Origin: Paludibacter sp.
GTDB lineage: Bacteria; Bacteroidota; Bacteroidia; Bacteroidales; Paludibacteraceae
Assembly: GCF_009712605.1 (NCBI RefSeq)
Contig: NZ_WASO01000003.1
Location: 176,523-240,522 of the forward strand
Direction: 5' to 3'
DNA: 64,000 nucleotides
Below, piece after piece: positions 44,777 through 52,251 of this stretch; within the stretch, counting starts at the first letter, position 1, and every line of letters starts with the position of its first letter. A program made the translations under genes and the position numbers. The notes under the pieces were generated by a model. The model ran no database searches, had not been told where the DNA came from, and saw nothing but the letters and a program-made list of their open reading frames with translations.

Positions 44777-46186
44777 TTAGTAGTGGGTCAGAATCCCCCG
44801 TTTGCGGAGGGTGATCATACAGCTGGTGGAGTTGCCGTAAAGCTTTCCGAAGTCTGCTGCCAGAGAACAACCTGCCTCCAGCCCGTAGAAACGGGGGAAC
44901 GATTTGTGTACTTCTAGTAGCAGAGAAGTATTTCTGATCATGGAAGGGAAAGGGGCGTAATAAGCTCCGTAGTTCTTACTGAAGGAGGCCAACAGCAGAT
45001 AGCTGTATCCAGACAGTTCTCCTTCAGCTCCGAAATGATGTACCTGCACCCGGCTGTTCAATGTATAAATCATACCGTTTTGGTTATAAAAAGGAGAAGA
45101 TATAAAAGGTGTTCCGATTGTCCGGTTAAAATAGTTCCACCCCGATTGATAAAGAAAATTCGCAAAATAATCATCACTACCACCATATACGATTCCATCT
45201 TTATCATGAAAAGGACCTGACTGGTCGGTGGTCCGGAGGTACTCATAAAGAATACCCTTTAGGAAACGGAACCGTTCTGTTCGCAATGTAACCCCCCACA
45301 ATCCGTCCGGGGCATTCATCGTAGTGCCGATTAATTCAATGGGACCGTCTTCCGAAATATTTTGCCAATAGGCACTTAAATTGACCACTCCCAGTCGGGC
45401 TTCCAACTTCAGATTTTGTGAAATAATGTGGTTGCCGAGGGCATTTATCCGATCTCCTTCATTTGCTGTCGCTCCACCACTCTCACCAGTTACTATTCGG
45501 ATAAAATCACCGAATCCCTCCGGTTGTCTTCCCTGATCGGCGTTGTAACCGCCCCATTGTGCCACATGATCGATGCCGTATGAAACATGTATTGGCAACC
45601 GGCCTCCGACCCTGAAGTATCCGTAGAGGTGGTGCAGGTAAACTCCCTTCATATAGGTGTTGTCGGTAAACCAACCGTGGGCAATAGCCCCTTTCACCTC
45701 CAGCAATCCGAAAGTGTAGGGTAGGGGAGTGAAGTGTTCTATGCCGGCCGTTATTTTTGGCATGGGGCGTGCATTCTTTGAAAAGAGGATTCCACCGCAC
45801 GACAATACCGAATCCTGACAGCCCGGGTATTCTTCCCTTTGGCCGAACACCAGGTCTAATGCCGACAGTTTTCCCTGCACATAAAGTTCCTGAAACCGGG
45901 CATCGGTTTGTTTGTAGTCGGTTTGCAGTAACAAGGTCGCTTTGTAGCCGTATTTTAATAGTTGCGGAGCATTACCCGGTTCTTTGCAGACTCCGACAAG
46001 AATGTTGGTGCTATTAGGAGAAGAGAGCACTGAGCCGTATCGGATACTTTGTTGCCAGAAAGGAGCATACTTACCGGACGAAGTGAGAGTCATCAGTTGT
46101 AGATCGTACTGCAGGCTATCCTTTTGCGCAAATAAAGGAGTGATAGCGTATAAAATAAAAAGCAGAAAGCTAAGTCGTTGTTGCAT
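44777..46186 (-). CDS. wzi: Wzi-family capsule assembly protein
   Basis: A 469-residue outer membrane beta-barrel of the Caps_assemb_Wzi family, which in E. coli binds capsule polysaccharide at the cell surface. The signal peptide is MQQRLSFLLFILYAITPLFA; I start at this ATG (46186) since the upstream extension begins with TTG. The body shows family-like strands: LQELYVQGKLSALDLVFGQREEY (cut by the signature GQRE), VKGAIAHGWF, YLHHLYGYFRVG, and YGIDHVAQWGG (about 207-217). It stands between the heptose genes and the polysaccharide export genes, so it probably helps to hold the product of the cluster. Confidence 0.9.
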   Translation of the reverse strand: MQQRLSFLLFILYAITPLFAQKDSLQYDLQLMTLTSSGKYAPFWQQSIRYGSVLSSPNSTNILVGVCKEPGNAPQLLKYGYKATLLLQTDYKQTDARFQELYVQGKLSALDLVFGQREEYPGCQDSVLSCGGILFSKNARPMPKITAGIEHFTPLPYTFGLLEVKGAIAHGWFTDNTYMKGVYLHHLYGYFRVGGRLPIHVSYGIDHVAQWGGYNADQGRQPEGFGDFIRIVTGESGGATANEGDRINALGNHIISQNLKLEARLGVVNLSAYWQNISEDGPIELIGTTMNAPDGLWGVTLRTERFRFLKGILYEYLRTTDQSGPFHDKDGIVYGGSDDYFANFLYQSGWNYFNRTIGTPFISSPFYNQNGMIYTLNSRVQVHHFGAEGELSGYSYLLLASFSKNYGAYYAPFPSMIRNTSLLLEVHKSFPRFYGLEAGCSLAADFGKLYGNSTSCMITLRKRGILTHY

Positions 46187-46254
46187 TTGAGTAATTAGTA
46201 ACAATAAGTACCAGGTATTTTACCTGCATAAGCAGCTTGTACTCTTTCCCGTCG

Positions 46255-47250
46255 TTATGGTGTAAAGCTCCAGAAGCTGTTCACCAGTCCGTTATCATCT
46301 TCTCCAAGTCCCAGATAAACGGTTCCGTTGATGGTAAATGCCACTGCGTTCTCCCTTTTTCCGTTGGGTATCTCTCCCCGGTCGATCCACTGGTTTGCAG
46401 ACGGATCATACTCTTTTACATCTGCCCGGAGATATTGGTTGGCGGTAACCGAACCTCTCCAGTAACGACCGGCACACACGAAATAACGATCGCCTACCGC
46501 AATGGCAAGGGTATTTTGTCGTCCATGGTCGGGCATGGGTTGTCGTTGTTTCCAGCTATCGGTCCCAGGGGAATATTCCCACCAGTCGTTATAACTCTTG
46601 CATTGGTATCCGGTTCCGAAATAGCAATGGTTGTCTCCGTTACAGGCTACTGCTATTTCACGGCTTTCGCCCATAAACATATTGAGGGGCATCCATCGGT
46701 CTTCTGCAGGGAGATATTTCCAGAACTTACAGGTAGAGCCATTACCGTTGAATCCCGAACCGACATAAATTTCATTGTTATAGACAAAGCTGGCGCAGGC
46801 ATCCGTAAATTTACTCGGGAAGTCTGCCTTACGCGTCCATTGGTCGTAATTCGGATCATATTGCCAGAAGTCGGTAGCATAGTTAGCGCTGTCTGCATAT
46901 CCTCCTGCTAAACCTAAGTATCCCAGTCCAATATAAGCATATCCGTTTGCTACAGCTGCAATCGCTTTGACCCGTGCTTTACCGGGAAAACTGTTTCTTT
47001 TCGTCCAGTTATTGGTTGCCGGATCGTATTGCCAGCAATCGTTGAGGAAAGAGCCGTTGCGGTTGCGTCCTAATGCGACATATCCTTTGCCAGCTATTGC
47101 AAAGGCGATGGCCGAGGCTCTCCCGCCATCGGGAATGGTGTTTTTTTGTATGTAAGTGAACGGCATTCTTTCTAATAGCTTTTCATTGTTACAGGCAATG
47201 AAAAGCAGGATGGGAATGGCGATATATATAGATAGTCTGAGAAATTTCAT
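46255..47250 (-). CDS. Kelch-repeat lipoprotein
   Basis: A 331-residue lipoprotein (lipobox LLFIAC, Cys20) that folds as a beta-propeller. Five to six kelch units are visible, each with a pattern like FWQYDPNYDQWTRKADFP or WWEYSPGTDSWKQRQPMP, and preceded by glycine-rich GYVALGRN or EIYVGSGFN strands. Such proteins bind glycans or proteins at the surface; relatives such as N-acetylneuraminate epimerase carry the same fold. It follows the AT-rich cassette and precedes wzi, and shares their strand. Its exact role is unknown. Confidence 0.88.
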   Translation of the reverse strand: MKFLRLSIYIAIPILLFIACNNEKLLERMPFTYIQKNTIPDGGRASAIAFAIAGKGYVALGRNRNGSFLNDCWQYDPATNNWTKRNSFPGKARVKAIAAVANGYAYIGLGYLGLAGGYADSANYATDFWQYDPNYDQWTRKADFPSKFTDACASFVYNNEIYVGSGFNGNGSTCKFWKYLPAEDRWMPLNMFMGESREIAVACNGDNHCYFGTGYQCKSYNDWWEYSPGTDSWKQRQPMPDHGRQNTLAIAVGDRYFVCAGRYWRGSVTANQYLRADVKEYDPSANQWIDRGEIPNGKRENAVAFTINGTVYLGLGEDDNGLVNSFWSFTP

Positions 47251-47371
47251 TTTGACACTAATGATAAATAATGGTCAGGATCTAGGGATTATGAACTGGA
47301 AATCAGAAGGCAAACATCAATAGAGCAACCAAAGTACTAAAAACTGTGTACTGAATCCTGAATACTCTTCC

Positions 47372-47620
47372 TCATCTCAGGTTCTGATGTCCTGCCAACA
47401 GCCATTCCCGAATCTCCGATTTTTGTTTCCTGGATTCCTCTTTCATGCTGACTTTGAAAAACAACCAGAAATTGAGAGCGGCAAACCAAAGAATAGCCAG
47501 AAGCCCACCGGCAAAGCCTCTCATCAGGCTGCCCTTGGTTTTTCCCAGATGTTGTTTTTCGAGAGGATAGGTGGGTGTGTCGATTCCTTCACTCCCGTAC
47601 TTGGTATCAGTTGTATCCAT
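47372..47620 (-). pseudogene. Duplicated 3' fragment of wzz
   Basis: An 82-codon frame whose residues 14-59 match the C-terminus of the full Wzz at 51100-52251: 34 of 46 residues are identical, from IDTPTYPLEKQ through ILWFAALNFW to FKVS. Only the conserved Pro-rich turn and the last transmembrane helix remain; the N-terminal helix and periplasmic domain are gone. The first 13 residues (MDTTDTKYG) and last 20 have no counterpart. It overlaps the end of the sulfatase-like gene by 14 bases. Most likely a remnant left when the cassette upstream was inserted; a small functional membrane peptide cannot be excluded. Confidence 0.75.
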
Positions 47621-49007: not shown

Positions 49008-50362
49008 AAATATAAAATTCTTTTGGAACCAGGAATAACAGTCTTGTCCATCATTTCAAAGGACTCATTAAATGTTTGAACAAAATTCTCCTCCGTGTAA
49101 TCATTAAATGTTGATTCTCTGCCCGACATTAATATTTTTACTTTTTCGTCATCACGTGGAATAAATTCAATGATGACGTATTTGCTGCTAAACTTCGATA
49201 GCATCTCCGATACCTGATCCATGCTCATATAGCTGCTGATACACAAATGGTGTATTAATGCCAAACATAATACCACATCACATTGAGTGCGTTCAAATAG
49301 AGAATCTAACTCTTTGTTCAAAATCCCTAATGATGGGGTCGGTTCGGATAACTCTCCGACAAGGACATTGATATTTTTAATATTTTCATCTACAGTCATT
49401 TTTTCAATTAAGTCAACACAGTGTTGATCGCTTTCAATTGCAATAACTTCTTCTGCGAGTTTGGATGAAATTTTGCTAAATTTGCCGGTATTGGCTCCTA
49501 AATCCAATACTTTTGTAGGATTGCAATTTGTTAGCCATTGTCTAACGATATTTTCCTTTTCCAGTAAGTATTGTTCAGACTCTATCGTGTTTTTGTAATA
49601 GCCCGACCAATGATCGTTATAAGTATAAGGCGTCTCCCATTTTCTAACATTCGATTGGATTAATCTAAATAGTATTTGTAGTTTTGTTGAGTTAAATACT
49701 CTTGAGTCAGAAGTCTTATTGTTGATTTTTTGATAGTCAAATTTCGCATGCATGTGTAAGTGCATAAGGCATGTTGTGTTAAACCATGATCGAATTGGCA
49801 ATTGCTTGCTAACAAAGGCCAATGGTAATCCATGCATATGAGTTTGATACAATCTAGCCCATCTCTGTCCTGAGAAATACATTAAGGCAAAAGGGGCTAA
49901 TAATTCTTCACAAAACTGTCTGTATGCAATCCAATTATCTCCATCGTTAAAAGAGATAAACGAGCTGGTATCCAATAAAATTGCTCTTCCTTCTTTTAAA
50001 TAAAAGTTAAATGGAGTAGCATCTTTTAGTATCATGCCATACTGTAAAGCTATGTGGTTTATCTCAAGGCATGTCAGTACTACTTTTCTCCATTGGGAAT
50101 AAGACCATTCAAAAGGAAAACTTTGAAAGTTAATTTGTTCTGGTAGCAACCGCTTATAAACCGTTGAATCATCCACATCAATCATTACTTCATCGTGAGG
50201 GATAAGCAGTCCTTTCTTTATCAATACATGATATAGTCCGGATAGCATGAGTACATCGTAGTCTTTTTTGTACGCTTGAAAAATATACCTGTAGTAAATT
50301 CCATTTTTTTCAACGACTCTAGATGTCTTATCCCTATGTGATTTATAATTGGGTTTAATCAT
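48986..50362 (-). CDS. Kinase-like/SAM-dependent methyltransferase fusion (NoeA-like)
   Basis: A 458-residue two-part protein. The N-terminal half resembles a degenerate small-molecule kinase: LKDATPFNF (112-120) stands where a catalytic loop would be and ILLDTSSF (128-135) where the metal-binding Asp would be. The C-terminal half is a class I methyltransferase with motif I VLDLGANTGKFS (285-296), an acidic residue after IAIES, and CLALIHHL as motif IV. This layout recalls the NoeA-type proteins of rhizobial nodulation and glycan clusters. Target unknown. Its start codon overlaps the stop of the small upstream gene by eight bases. Confidence 0.78.
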   Translation of the reverse strand: MIKPNYKSHRDKTSRVVEKNGIYYRYIFQAYKKDYDVLMLSGLYHVLIKKGLLIPHDEVMIDVDDSTVYKRLLPEQINFQSFPFEWSYSQWRKVVLTCLEINHIALQYGMILKDATPFNFYLKEGRAILLDTSSFISFNDGDNWIAYRQFCEELLAPFALMYFSGQRWARLYQTHMHGLPLAFVSKQLPIRSWFNTTCLMHLHMHAKFDYQKINNKTSDSRVFNSTKLQILFRLIQSNVRKWETPYTYNDHWSGYYKNTIESEQYLLEKENIVRQWLTNCNPTKVLDLGANTGKFSKISSKLAEEVIAIESDQHCVDLIEKMTVDENIKNINVLVGELSEPTPSLGILNKELDSLFERTQCDVVLCLALIHHLCISSYMSMDQVSEMLSKFSSKYVIIEFIPRDDEKVKILMSGRESTFNDYTEENFVQTFNESFEMMDKTVIPGSKRILYLWKKNVG

Positions 50363-50525
50363 GATTTTTAGAGTCGGAATTAATGGACTCTTTTTTCTGT
50401 TTTGTGAATACGCTTTTGACTAAGAAAACTATCTTTTTAAAGAAAACCAAAAAAGTTAAAAGGCCTGATAATAGTGCTTGAAATAGTAAACTCCCGGATC
50501 CAGGGTCGATATATAAAAATTTCAT
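50355..50525 (-). CDS. 56-residue membrane protein with YIDPGSGS motif
   Basis: A short gene that begins with ATG at 50525 and ends with TAA at 50355, inside the start of the next gene: its last eight bases, ATGATTAA, are also the first eight of the methyltransferase gene. The product starts MKFLYIDPGSGSLLFQALLS, has one hydrophobic helix (about 12-40) and ends in a charged tail (TKQKKESINSDSKNHD). The overlap means the two are translated together. From memory, small proteins with YIDPGTGS-like starts occur beside sulfatase-like and methyltransferase genes in other glycan clusters; I cannot check this here. Function unknown, perhaps an assembly partner in the membrane. Confidence 0.8.
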   Translation of the reverse strand: MKFLYIDPGSGSLLFQALLSGLLTFLVFFKKIVFLVKSVFTKQKKESINSDSKNHD

Positions 50526-51099: not shown

Positions 51100-52251
51100 T
51101 TATTCTTTTTTTTGTTCGGTTTCTTCTTTGGTTTCTGGTGTTAAGCTGACTTTGAAAAGCGACCAGAAATAGAGAGCTGCAAACCAAAGGATAGCTAAAA
51201 ATCCACCGGTAAAGCCTCCTATAAGGATGCCTTTGGCTTTACCCAGACGTTGCTTCTCCAGGGGATAAACGGGAGCATCGATTACCTGTACCAGCGGCGT
51301 CTCCTGATTGATGGTCATTTTCATCACTTCCAGGTTCTTAATCATCTCCGCATAGGTAGCGCCTGCCACCTGCACATTGCTTTGCGAACGAACCACCCCA
51401 ACACTGGCCACCTGGCGAACCGCGTTTGGTACGGCATCGGCCTGTGAGGCACGGGCTGCGACCGCTCCGTTGAAGATGGCTTTTACCGAGTCGGCCTGGT
51501 GGAGCAGCTTCAAGTAATTATCGCGCGACACTTTGGTTTTGGTATATACATAAAAGTCAGTTGTCTCGTGTATAAGATTCTCCACAAATAGTTTGGAGAG
51601 ATCTTCATTTTCGGATACAAAGGAAATGTCACCGATACTCAGCTTTTTGCCACGCTGGGCTACGGTTAGCATGGGCTTCTTTGTAATGGTGGTATAAATG
51701 GATTGAAGAATGCTGTCCTGAGCCCGCGTGTAACTTTTTCTATCCTGACTAAGTGGAAAGGCCATTTTTTGAATTTCTGGTTTTGAGCTTTTGCTCCACC
51801 CTTCTCGCAACTTGTAAGTGTCTATATAGAGGTTCAGCAGGTTGGTTGTTTTGCCGTTAATGGTTGTCGGGCAGAGCAGTGTTTGTTCTACTAAACGGCG
51901 GGAGGTAAAGAGTTCGTAGAGATTGTCTCCTCCAAATGCGCTGCTGGCACCACCTACGCTTACACCGAACTGACTCGCAAGACTGGCGAGTCCCGACATG
52001 CCTCCGCCTTTTTCGTCCTGTAAGGCAAAAGAGAGTTTGGCGGTATAAGTCGGTTTGGTAAGAACAGATTTAGTAAGTCCGATTCCTGCTCCTATAACAG
52101 CAATAACAATTACGATCCATTTCTTGTTCCAGATCTTTTTCTTGATTGTCGTAAGATGCAGGAGCATCTCTTGTAAGGATATTTCGTCTGACGATGTCGT
52201 TCCGTTGTTATTCTGCGATGACATGTTTATATTGTTTTGTTCTGAACTCAT
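51100..52251 (-). CDS. wzz: Wzz-type polysaccharide chain-length protein
   Basis: Inner-membrane protein that sets polymer length together with Wzy and contacts Wza. The 383-residue protein has a Wzz N-terminal domain with a first helix at about 44-60 (IVIVIAVIGAGIGLTKSVL), a long periplasmic part, and a C-terminal helix at about 343-366 preceded by the Pro-rich turn VIDAPVYPLEKQRLG (about 326-340). It lacks the tyrosine-kinase domain of Wzc, and no separate kinase is in the window. The C-terminal part has a degraded duplicate at 47372-47620. It lies 265 bases after wza. Confidence 0.9.
   Translation of the reverse strand: MSSEQNNINMSSQNNNGTTSSDEISLQEMLLHLTTIKKKIWNKKWIVIVIAVIGAGIGLTKSVLTKPTYTAKLSFALQDEKGGGMSGLASLASQFGVSVGGASSAFGGDNLYELFTSRRLVEQTLLCPTTINGKTTNLLNLYIDTYKLREGWSKSSKPEIQKMAFPLSQDRKSYTRAQDSILQSIYTTITKKPMLTVAQRGKKLSIGDISFVSENEDLSKLFVENLIHETTDFYVYTKTKVSRDNYLKLLHQADSVKAIFNGAVAARASQADAVPNAVRQVASVGVVRSQSNVQVAGATYAEMIKNLEVMKMTINQETPLVQVIDAPVYPLEKQRLGKAKGILIGGFTGGFLAILWFAALYFWSLFKVSLTPETKEETEQKKE

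Follow-up and report, generated by a model that had tools for sequence, protein, structure and literature searches.

A small YIDPG-motif membrane protein gene that recurs beside NoeA-type kinase-methyltransferases

The locus and its genes

The stretch of DNA analysed here (the window, 64,000 nucleotides of a Paludibacter contig) carries three overlapping genes on its reverse strand (Table 1). The first begins with an ATG at 50525, encodes 56 amino acids (MKFLYIDPGSGSLLFQALLSGLLTFLVFFKKIVFLVKSVFTKQKKESINSDSKNHD) and ends with a TAA stop at 50357-50355. Residues 5-12 of its product form the motif YIDPGSGS; the protein is predicted to cross the membrane with a single helix, and its tail is basic. 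The second gene, which encodes a kinase-methyltransferase, has its ATG at 50362, inside the 3' end of the first, so that the two genes share 8 nt (ATGATTAA), and the start of the third, sulfatase-like gene overlaps the end of the second by 22 nt. The initial annotation had read the small frame, with its ATG, motif, single helix and charged tail, from the letters of the DNA, and the frame is borne out at exactly these coordinates, as are the bases shared with the next gene.

Table 1. Features of the locus, in window coordinates
Feature	Position	Strand	Basis
Small membrane protein gene	50355..50525	-	ORF coordinates, family alignment A2, AlphaFold2 helix
Bases shared by small-gene stop and next-gene start	50355..50362	-	ATGATTAA, 8-nt overlap
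NoeA-family kinase-methyltransferase, 458 aa	48986..50362	-	Profiles, AlphaFold2, tblastn, Foldseek, PMC9758233
NoeB-like alkaline-phosphatase-superfamily enzyme, 466 aa	47607..49007	-	Pfam Sulfatase 2.2e-07, conserved residues
Second copy of wzz 3' end, one cassette flank	47447..47585		80% identity over 139 bases to 51145-51283
wzz 3' end, other cassette flank	51145..51283		Uninterrupted site in L232

The small gene had also been called unannotated. This is only partly right: one Novosphingobium and three Sinorhizobium/Ensifer records list homologues under the label "hypothetical protein". The window protein has no Pfam match, and its best NCBIfam match is weak and MscL-like (E 0.052). Among 96 members of the family, no Pfam or NCBIfam model fits more than one member at E 0.01. 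The MscL-like match and single-member matches such as AtpR are taken as membrane-helix artefacts. In the papers searched, the motif led to no description of the family, the sole one with "YIDPG" having it inside an unrelated phospholipase sequence, and a search by terms for such a module found none.

The three genes have a GC content of 30-34%, compared with 46-48% in the neighbouring genes, and a copy of the wzz 3' end lies on either side of them. In a genome of the same genus (L232) the site is uninterrupted, the counterparts of window positions 45930-47585 and 51145-52191 adjoining each other, and no kinase-methyltransferase was found at E 1e-20 in 60 relatives. Taken together, the low GC, the wzz flanks, the uninterrupted site and the absence from relatives make it most likely that the three genes arrived together, and by these sequence features the cassette is a horizontal gain at the wzz 3' end.

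The two enzymes

The kinase-methyltransferase consists of a kinase-like region (about residues 14-240) and a methyltransferase (about residues 263-455) that ends the chain. In alignment A3, which joins the window protein to 59 of 78 full-length kinase-methyltransferases, the kinase residues R25, D114, N119 and D131 and the class I SAM methyltransferase residues G289, N291, D312, H371 and H372 are invariant (60/60 each), and 35 of the 60 members match Methyltransf_23. The kinase residues given for NoeA/Lani_1194 in PMC9758233 are an arginine that replaces PKA K72 and the equivalents of D166, N171 and D184. The window enzyme has all of them, the residue equivalence being our reading of the alignment and the paper. 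Its AlphaFold2 model has a mean pLDDT of 93.8, and WbdD tops both the Foldseek list and the profile search of solved structures (E 4e-4, query 285-407). There is no kinase-only structure among the best 50 Foldseek rows listed, and the kinase reading therefore draws on the conserved residues and on PMC9758233. A tblastn search matched records annotated noeA (29.5% identity, E 4e-49), which upholds the proposed link to NoeA; a tblastn search with this enzyme matched no phage record.

The NoeB-like enzyme has a hydrophobic N-terminal part and a probable catalytic Thr238. Formylglycine (S1) sulfatases use a Cys or Ser nucleophile within a C/S-x-P-x-R motif, and enzymes of the LtaS/EptA/BcsG type are phosphotransferases of the alkaline phosphatase superfamily with a Thr nucleophile. 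Alignment A4 comprises the window enzyme and 42 of 46 sulfatase-like stretches. Among its 43 members, the nucleophile column holds Thr in 42 and Ser in 1, never Cys, and D196 (41), H371 (43), D423 (43) and H424 (41) are similarly conserved, the roles of nucleophile and metal ligand being assigned from the alignment. The C/S-x-P-x-R motif of S1 sulfatases is not found in the aligned stretch of the members shown, and the Thr with its putative metal ligands would fit the LtaS/EptA/BcsG type. Its profile matches 19 solved structures, every one of them named a sulfatase (best E 2.2e-07). Given the Thr at the nucleophile position, the enzyme is better read as a phosphotransferase or phosphodiesterase type than as a sulfatase. 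What had been described as a sulfatase-like membrane enzyme is thus a recurrent companion of the small gene (see below), but one for which another activity is preferred.

A conserved family of small genes

A 23-base degenerate pattern for YIDPG[ST]G[ST], run on 395 genomes of the phylum including the window's own, matched in 7, and the pattern read backward matched in none. Five of the seven matches are small ORFs of the same build; those in L011 and L015 are not. A longer pattern, for which about 0.3 chance matches are expected by a hand estimate, found at least 118 loci in the genome collection. In all 118 listed loci, the motif lies within a small ORF and is followed by 29-67 residues up to the stop or contig end, several loci being cut by a contig or tile end. 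They share a short N-terminus or signal-peptide-like stretch, the motif, a hydrophobic stretch and a basic tail, the last two judged by eye for the 118 loci and measured on the 96 members of alignment A2. This alignment contains the window protein and 95 of 111 usable listed loci; left out of the 118 were L026 and L050, with fewer than 39 residues left, and five without a usable start codon. By record title, the listed loci belong to Bacteroidota, Chloroflexi, Acidobacteria, Omnitrophota, Patescibacteria, Verrucomicrobiota, Armatimonadota, Planctomycetota and Actinomycetota, among others, together with a Pelagibacteraceae and one Altiarchaeales archaeon. In this last assembly (Candidatus Altiarchaeales, L112), the small gene, a kinase-methyltransferase and two sulfatase-like stretches lie on a contig binned as archaeal, which could be due to gene transfer or to a mistake in binning. 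No match to the motif was found in viral contigs.

Selection on the protein sequence was estimated from 13 pairs of relatives with unsaturated dS (0.35-1.25), in which dN/dS is 0.04-0.67 with a median of 0.21; the pairs are non-independent, many further pairs are saturated, and the window copy itself has no close relative. A chance ORF or unconserved artefact might have been suspected, as no homologue was found in the 60 relatives searched. At least 118 loci of the same build speak against it, horizontal gain explains the absence in relatives, and the same-genus genome has an uninterrupted site, so that we regard this explanation as virtually discounted. The small gene is confirmed as real. 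In a protein search of 61 relatives, the window protein gave only weak matches apart from its own copy, and the loci of the four other genomes concerned (E 0.02-0.08) have no match to the small-family profile. Its own genome holds a weak second match (L002, E 0.5), at a place where the ORF list has no frame of this build.

Topology and the outward cap

The upstream part of the small ORFs was considered in 196 rows, namely the 118 listed motif loci and 78 loci anchored on the kinase-methyltransferase, some loci being counted twice. In 91 of these, the motif comes immediately after a signal-peptide-like stretch whose last residue (-1) is A, G or S. Another 46 have an open frame of fewer than 17 codons ahead of the motif, and the remaining 59 fit neither the signal-peptide nor the short-form rule; among these are the short form of the window protein itself and a form from Chloroflexi whose N-terminus is hydrophobic. 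When the start codon lies 2-9 residues before the motif, the motif begins 4-8 residues in for 52 of 55 members. AlphaFold2 models the window protein as a single helix (residues 8-54, mean pLDDT 81.6, and 93-98 over residues 11-40). The first 20 residues of the tail have a mean net charge of +3.3, which is at least +2 in 79 of the 96 A2 members, and this charge suggests an N-out/C-in orientation. The motif probably faces outward, because the signal-peptide-like stretch so often ends directly before it. We infer that the motif caps the mature protein at or close to its N-terminus, on the outer side of the inner membrane, and that the tail is cytosolic.

The cap is also the most conserved part of the protein. 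In 75 distinct members anchored on the kinase-methyltransferase, Y is found in 74, D in 75, P in 72, G at position 7 in 72, S at position 8 in 70 and Q in 75. The motif was located with an expression that favours Y-x-D and Q, which bears on these counts, and one anchored match (L229) has no motif. Of the 75, 8 have A, N or F at position 6, and 5 have A or I at position 8. These features could be explained if the small protein were itself a substrate or carrier, with an exposed YIDPG cap as the site of phosphorylation, methylation or charging before the outward enzyme passes it on. The near-invariant Y and D, the placement of the motif directly after a signal-peptide-like stretch or a few residues from a short start, and the cases in which the small protein has the outward enzyme for company although the search found no kinase-methyltransferase would all suit such a role. 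The kinase and methyltransferase are, however, expected in the cytosol and the cap is predicted outside, and the substitutions at positions 6 and 8 indicate that Ser/Thr are not obligatory acceptors; we hold this explanation to be unlikely. The narrower idea of a Ser/Thr phosphopeptide is weakened by the A, N or F at these motif positions.

Genomic company of the small gene

Neighbours were sought with profiles, since the first gene calling lost or shortened some of them (for example in an 852-base gap in L060). Among the 118 listed loci, the kinase-methyltransferase was found in 104, the sulfatase-like gene in 69, with many stretches too short to show the latter, and either of them in 109. 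The recurring company of the two enzymes that the initial annotation had supposed is thereby supported. The kinase-methyltransferase match begins near its own start and between -150 and +400 bases from the small-gene stop in 91 of the 118. It lies downstream on the same strand in 94, upstream in 9 and on the other strand in 1. In the 94 downstream pairs, with spacing extrapolated to the start of the kinase-methyltransferase profile, the enzyme gene starts no further than 88 bases past the small gene in 91, and at 460-1725 bases in the remaining 3. Overlap, or a gap of no more than 14 nt, is seen in 64 of 71 downstream-adjacent pairs from loci other than the window's; the first possible start codon was taken here, which makes this an upper bound on overlap.

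The tight overlap in many loci is suggestive of translational coupling, but the claim that translation must be coupled was too strong, given the 3 of 94 downstream pairs that lie 460-1725 bases apart. The same overlap would suit an ORF that acts only as a leader for the gene that follows, or couples its translation, without a protein function of its own. Such a role is at odds with the conservation at the protein level, with dN/dS below 1 in the 13 unsaturated pairs, with the shared topology and with the loci in which the small gene lies after or far from the kinase-methyltransferase, and it appears highly improbable.

The association was also followed in the other direction. Loci anchored on the kinase-methyltransferase have the small gene within about 1.5 kb in 79 of 84 cases across four phyla, a proportion that may overstate the link for distant subfamilies, as the kinase-methyltransferase profile owes 59 of its 60 rows to loci that were reached by way of the small gene. 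By phylum, the counts are 12/14 in the window's own, 13/15 in that of G455, 29/30 in that of G456 (Acidobacteriota) and 25/25 in that of G457 (Chloroflexi). The enzyme itself occurs in 14 of 395, 15 of 45, 38 of 199 and 25 of 201 genomes of these phyla, respectively; in the phylum of G456, 30 loci were taken from the 38 genomes and 8 genomes gave no locus. The small gene was found in 0 of 84 reversed-DNA decoys and 0 of 15 unrelated loci. Three of the five exceptions have the small gene elsewhere in the genome (in G313, 1.7 kb upstream on the same contig). The other two, G282 and G479, have no small-gene match in the genome, and their kinase-methyltransferases are the lowest-scoring of the 84 (E 1e-57 and 1.6e-44).

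Conversely, 14 genomes have a motif locus without a kinase-methyltransferase, several of these loci being cut at the small gene. Seven of the genomes carry the enzyme elsewhere or beyond the stretch, and in the other seven none was found at E 1e-20, one of these assemblies being only 0.7 Mb and the completeness of the assemblies not being given. Probably, then, the small protein exists without the kinase-methyltransferase in some genomes. The position of the small gene before the enzyme, which had been called fixed, is accordingly the usual one but not fixed, considering these 7 of 14 checked genomes and the 10 listed loci with the enzyme upstream or on the other strand. In L133, the sulfatase-like gene follows 2 bases after the small gene, and in L075 and L116 the two are about 4.6 kb apart; no kinase-methyltransferase was found in these three genomes. 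Together with the conservation centred on the predicted outward side, these cases are what would be expected if the small protein served the outward enzyme alone, as an activator, chaperone or presenter of a lipid carrier, with the kinase-methyltransferase a mere neighbour in the pathway. Against this stands the stronger link to the kinase-methyltransferase in the listed loci (104 versus 69), with the caveat on stretch length given above, and we think this role unlikely. An opposite-strand family beside L038, L070, L074, L084 and L107 was set aside, as it covers the place of the kinase-methyltransferase found by profile.

The wider neighbourhood is mixed. Among 89 sampled same-strand neighbours, glycosyltransferase group 1 occurs in 4, glycosyltransferase family 2 in 3 and GDP-mannose dehydratase in 3. 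In 20 loci (L024, L025, L032, L036, L047, L053, L062, L068 and 12 more), the gene directly upstream of the small gene belongs to a cluster whose member in L024 is an M42 aminopeptidase; by title, these loci are mostly Chitinophagaceae and other Bacteroidota, and they form a steady non-glycan neighbourhood. In L048, L064, L081, L110, L115 and L133, a neighbour at or near the small gene comes from a cluster whose member in L081 is the insertase YidC, a juxtaposition with a small N-out membrane protein that may carry meaning or may be fortuitous. Because glycosyltransferases are few and the M42 and YidC clusters recur, a glycan context occurs but is not general. The proposal that the system modifies glycans is plausible from the polysaccharide locus in the window, but it is unproven, with glycosyltransferases a minority of the neighbours and the M42-type aminopeptidase in 20 loci.

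The Sinorhizobium nodL-noeA-noeB operon

By profile and tblastn scores, the two window enzymes correspond to the NoeA/NoeB pair of Sinorhizobium: noeA matches the kinase-methyltransferase profile at 1.4e-138 and noeB the sulfatase-like profile at 1.3e-17. The tblastn search with the window kinase-methyltransferase matched 65 plasmid records, 57 of them from Sinorhizobium, and among the 60 rows listed, those Sinorhizobium/Ensifer rows with a named feature name noeA. On pSymA of S. meliloti 1021 (L148, 3522-3771), an ORF of the small family lies directly before noeA (profile E 8.6e-15), with a signal-peptide-like stretch that ends in PAHA and is followed by YLDPGTGS. Six Sinorhizobium/Ensifer records were examined out of the 65 matching records. 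A small gene of 71 aa precedes noeA in all six, and the three with gene tables list a "hypothetical protein" between nodL and noeA. A small-family match likewise accompanies the kinase-methyltransferase on four further plasmids, those of Singulisphaera, Deltaproteobacteria Smac51, Gemmatirosa and Novosphingobium; in Smac51 it follows the enzyme gene.

Mutants of noeA or noeB, studied by Ardourel et al. in 1995, reportedly had an unchanged Nod factor structure, which would indicate another target. In the published descriptions drawn on here, NoeA and NoeB influence which Medicago S. meliloti nodulates, and a strain with a truncated noeA failed to nodulate 17 of 27 M. truncatula genotypes, with noeA suggested by the authors as the cause. 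The genes named there for the nod box n5 operon are nodL, noeA and noeB; the pSymA small gene before noeA is absent from these three.

The enzyme pair itself has been described as Lani_1194/Lani_1195, a kinase-methyltransferase with a phosphatase-fold partner, and homologues of Lani_1194 have two conserved immediate neighbours in 65% and 38% of 816 neighbourhoods (PMC9758233). The 65% neighbour is Lani_1193, whose nature is not stated where that paper treats the pair, and it may be a member of the small-protein family. The enzyme pair is thus known, and what the present analysis would add is the small protein as an unnamed subunit of the NoeA-NoeB module.

Likeness to WbdD and to BcsEFG

Two characterized systems offer comparisons. 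For WbdD we know of no small partner. Like the window enzyme, WbdD unites kinase and methyltransferase in one protein. In E. coli O9a it phosphorylates the glycan end and then methylates the phosphate (PMC3482155). The order of domains differs, since WbdD has the methyltransferase first, then the kinase and a C-terminal coiled coil (PMC3482155), whereas the window enzyme begins with the kinase-like region and closes with the methyltransferase instead of a coiled coil. In the comparisons made in PMC9758233, WbdD is placed beside Lcin_0519 as a clearly different, remotely related family, with Lani_1194 treated separately.

In the BcsEFG operon, one gene encodes a cytosolic protein, another a phosphoethanolamine transferase, and a third a peptide that crosses the inner membrane once and has an amphipathic tail in the cytosol (PMC11470070). 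The window module, known from genes and predictions, resembles it in this three-part build, and the small protein is BcsF-like in its predicted single membrane helix and its basic, putatively cytosolic tail. No match to the BcsF family model was found among the 96 small-protein members at E 0.01, and BcsE, unlike the window enzyme, is not a kinase-methyltransferase. According to PMC11470070, neither BcsE nor BcsF is in direct contact with BcsG. The window module would be analogous to BcsEFG rather than a member of it.

A possible role for the small protein

The small gene belongs to a conserved family, is a near-constant neighbour of NoeA-type kinase-methyltransferases and, in the window, lies with both enzyme genes in one gained stretch. 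The reading we tentatively prefer, with somewhat less than even confidence, is that the small protein is a membrane subunit of a NoeA-NoeB-type envelope-modification module and couples the two enzymes. In the manner of WbdD, the kinase-methyltransferase would add a phosphate and a methyl group to a glycan that is lipid-linked or on the cell surface. The small protein would insert N-out/C-in, with the YIDPG[ST]GS cap outside and the basic tail in the cytosol, and would span the membrane so as to join the cytosolic kinase-methyltransferase to the outward phosphotransferase acting on the same product, a role somewhat like that of the single-pass BcsF in the cellulose machinery. For the invariant cap, the docking partner might be the outward enzyme or the lipid carrier. 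In this scheme the topology is predicted, and the interaction and the substrate are inferred.

The two-way association, the topology, the conservation of the motif, the dN/dS values, the joint cassette, the kinase residues and the WbdD matches support this coupling role. It is weakened by the seven genomes without a kinase-methyltransferase and by the often non-glycan neighbours. Moreover, conservation peaks in the predicted outward cap and not in the tail, which is odd for a protein that holds a cytosolic enzyme. The outward conservation and the genomes without the enzyme leave room for the cap as acceptor or for a partner of the NoeB-like enzyme alone, as set out above.

A bolder version of the coupling role is that the small protein is a near-obligatory third subunit of NoeA modules throughout bacteria, and in at least one archaeon-binned assembly, and the product of an overlooked gene of nodL-noeA-noeB. 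Its outward cap would be the conserved part that does the work, docking the phosphotransferase on a lipid-linked glycan or being itself modified. We consider this possible but doubtful; if true, it would be a new way of handing a modification across the membrane. If the small gene of that operon encodes a working subunit, it would give a direct handle on the substrate of NoeA and NoeB. The module is found in many phyla by record title, so that an answer in one laboratory strain would bear on genes whose only labels at present are "SAM-dependent methyltransferase", "sulfatase-like" and "hypothetical protein".
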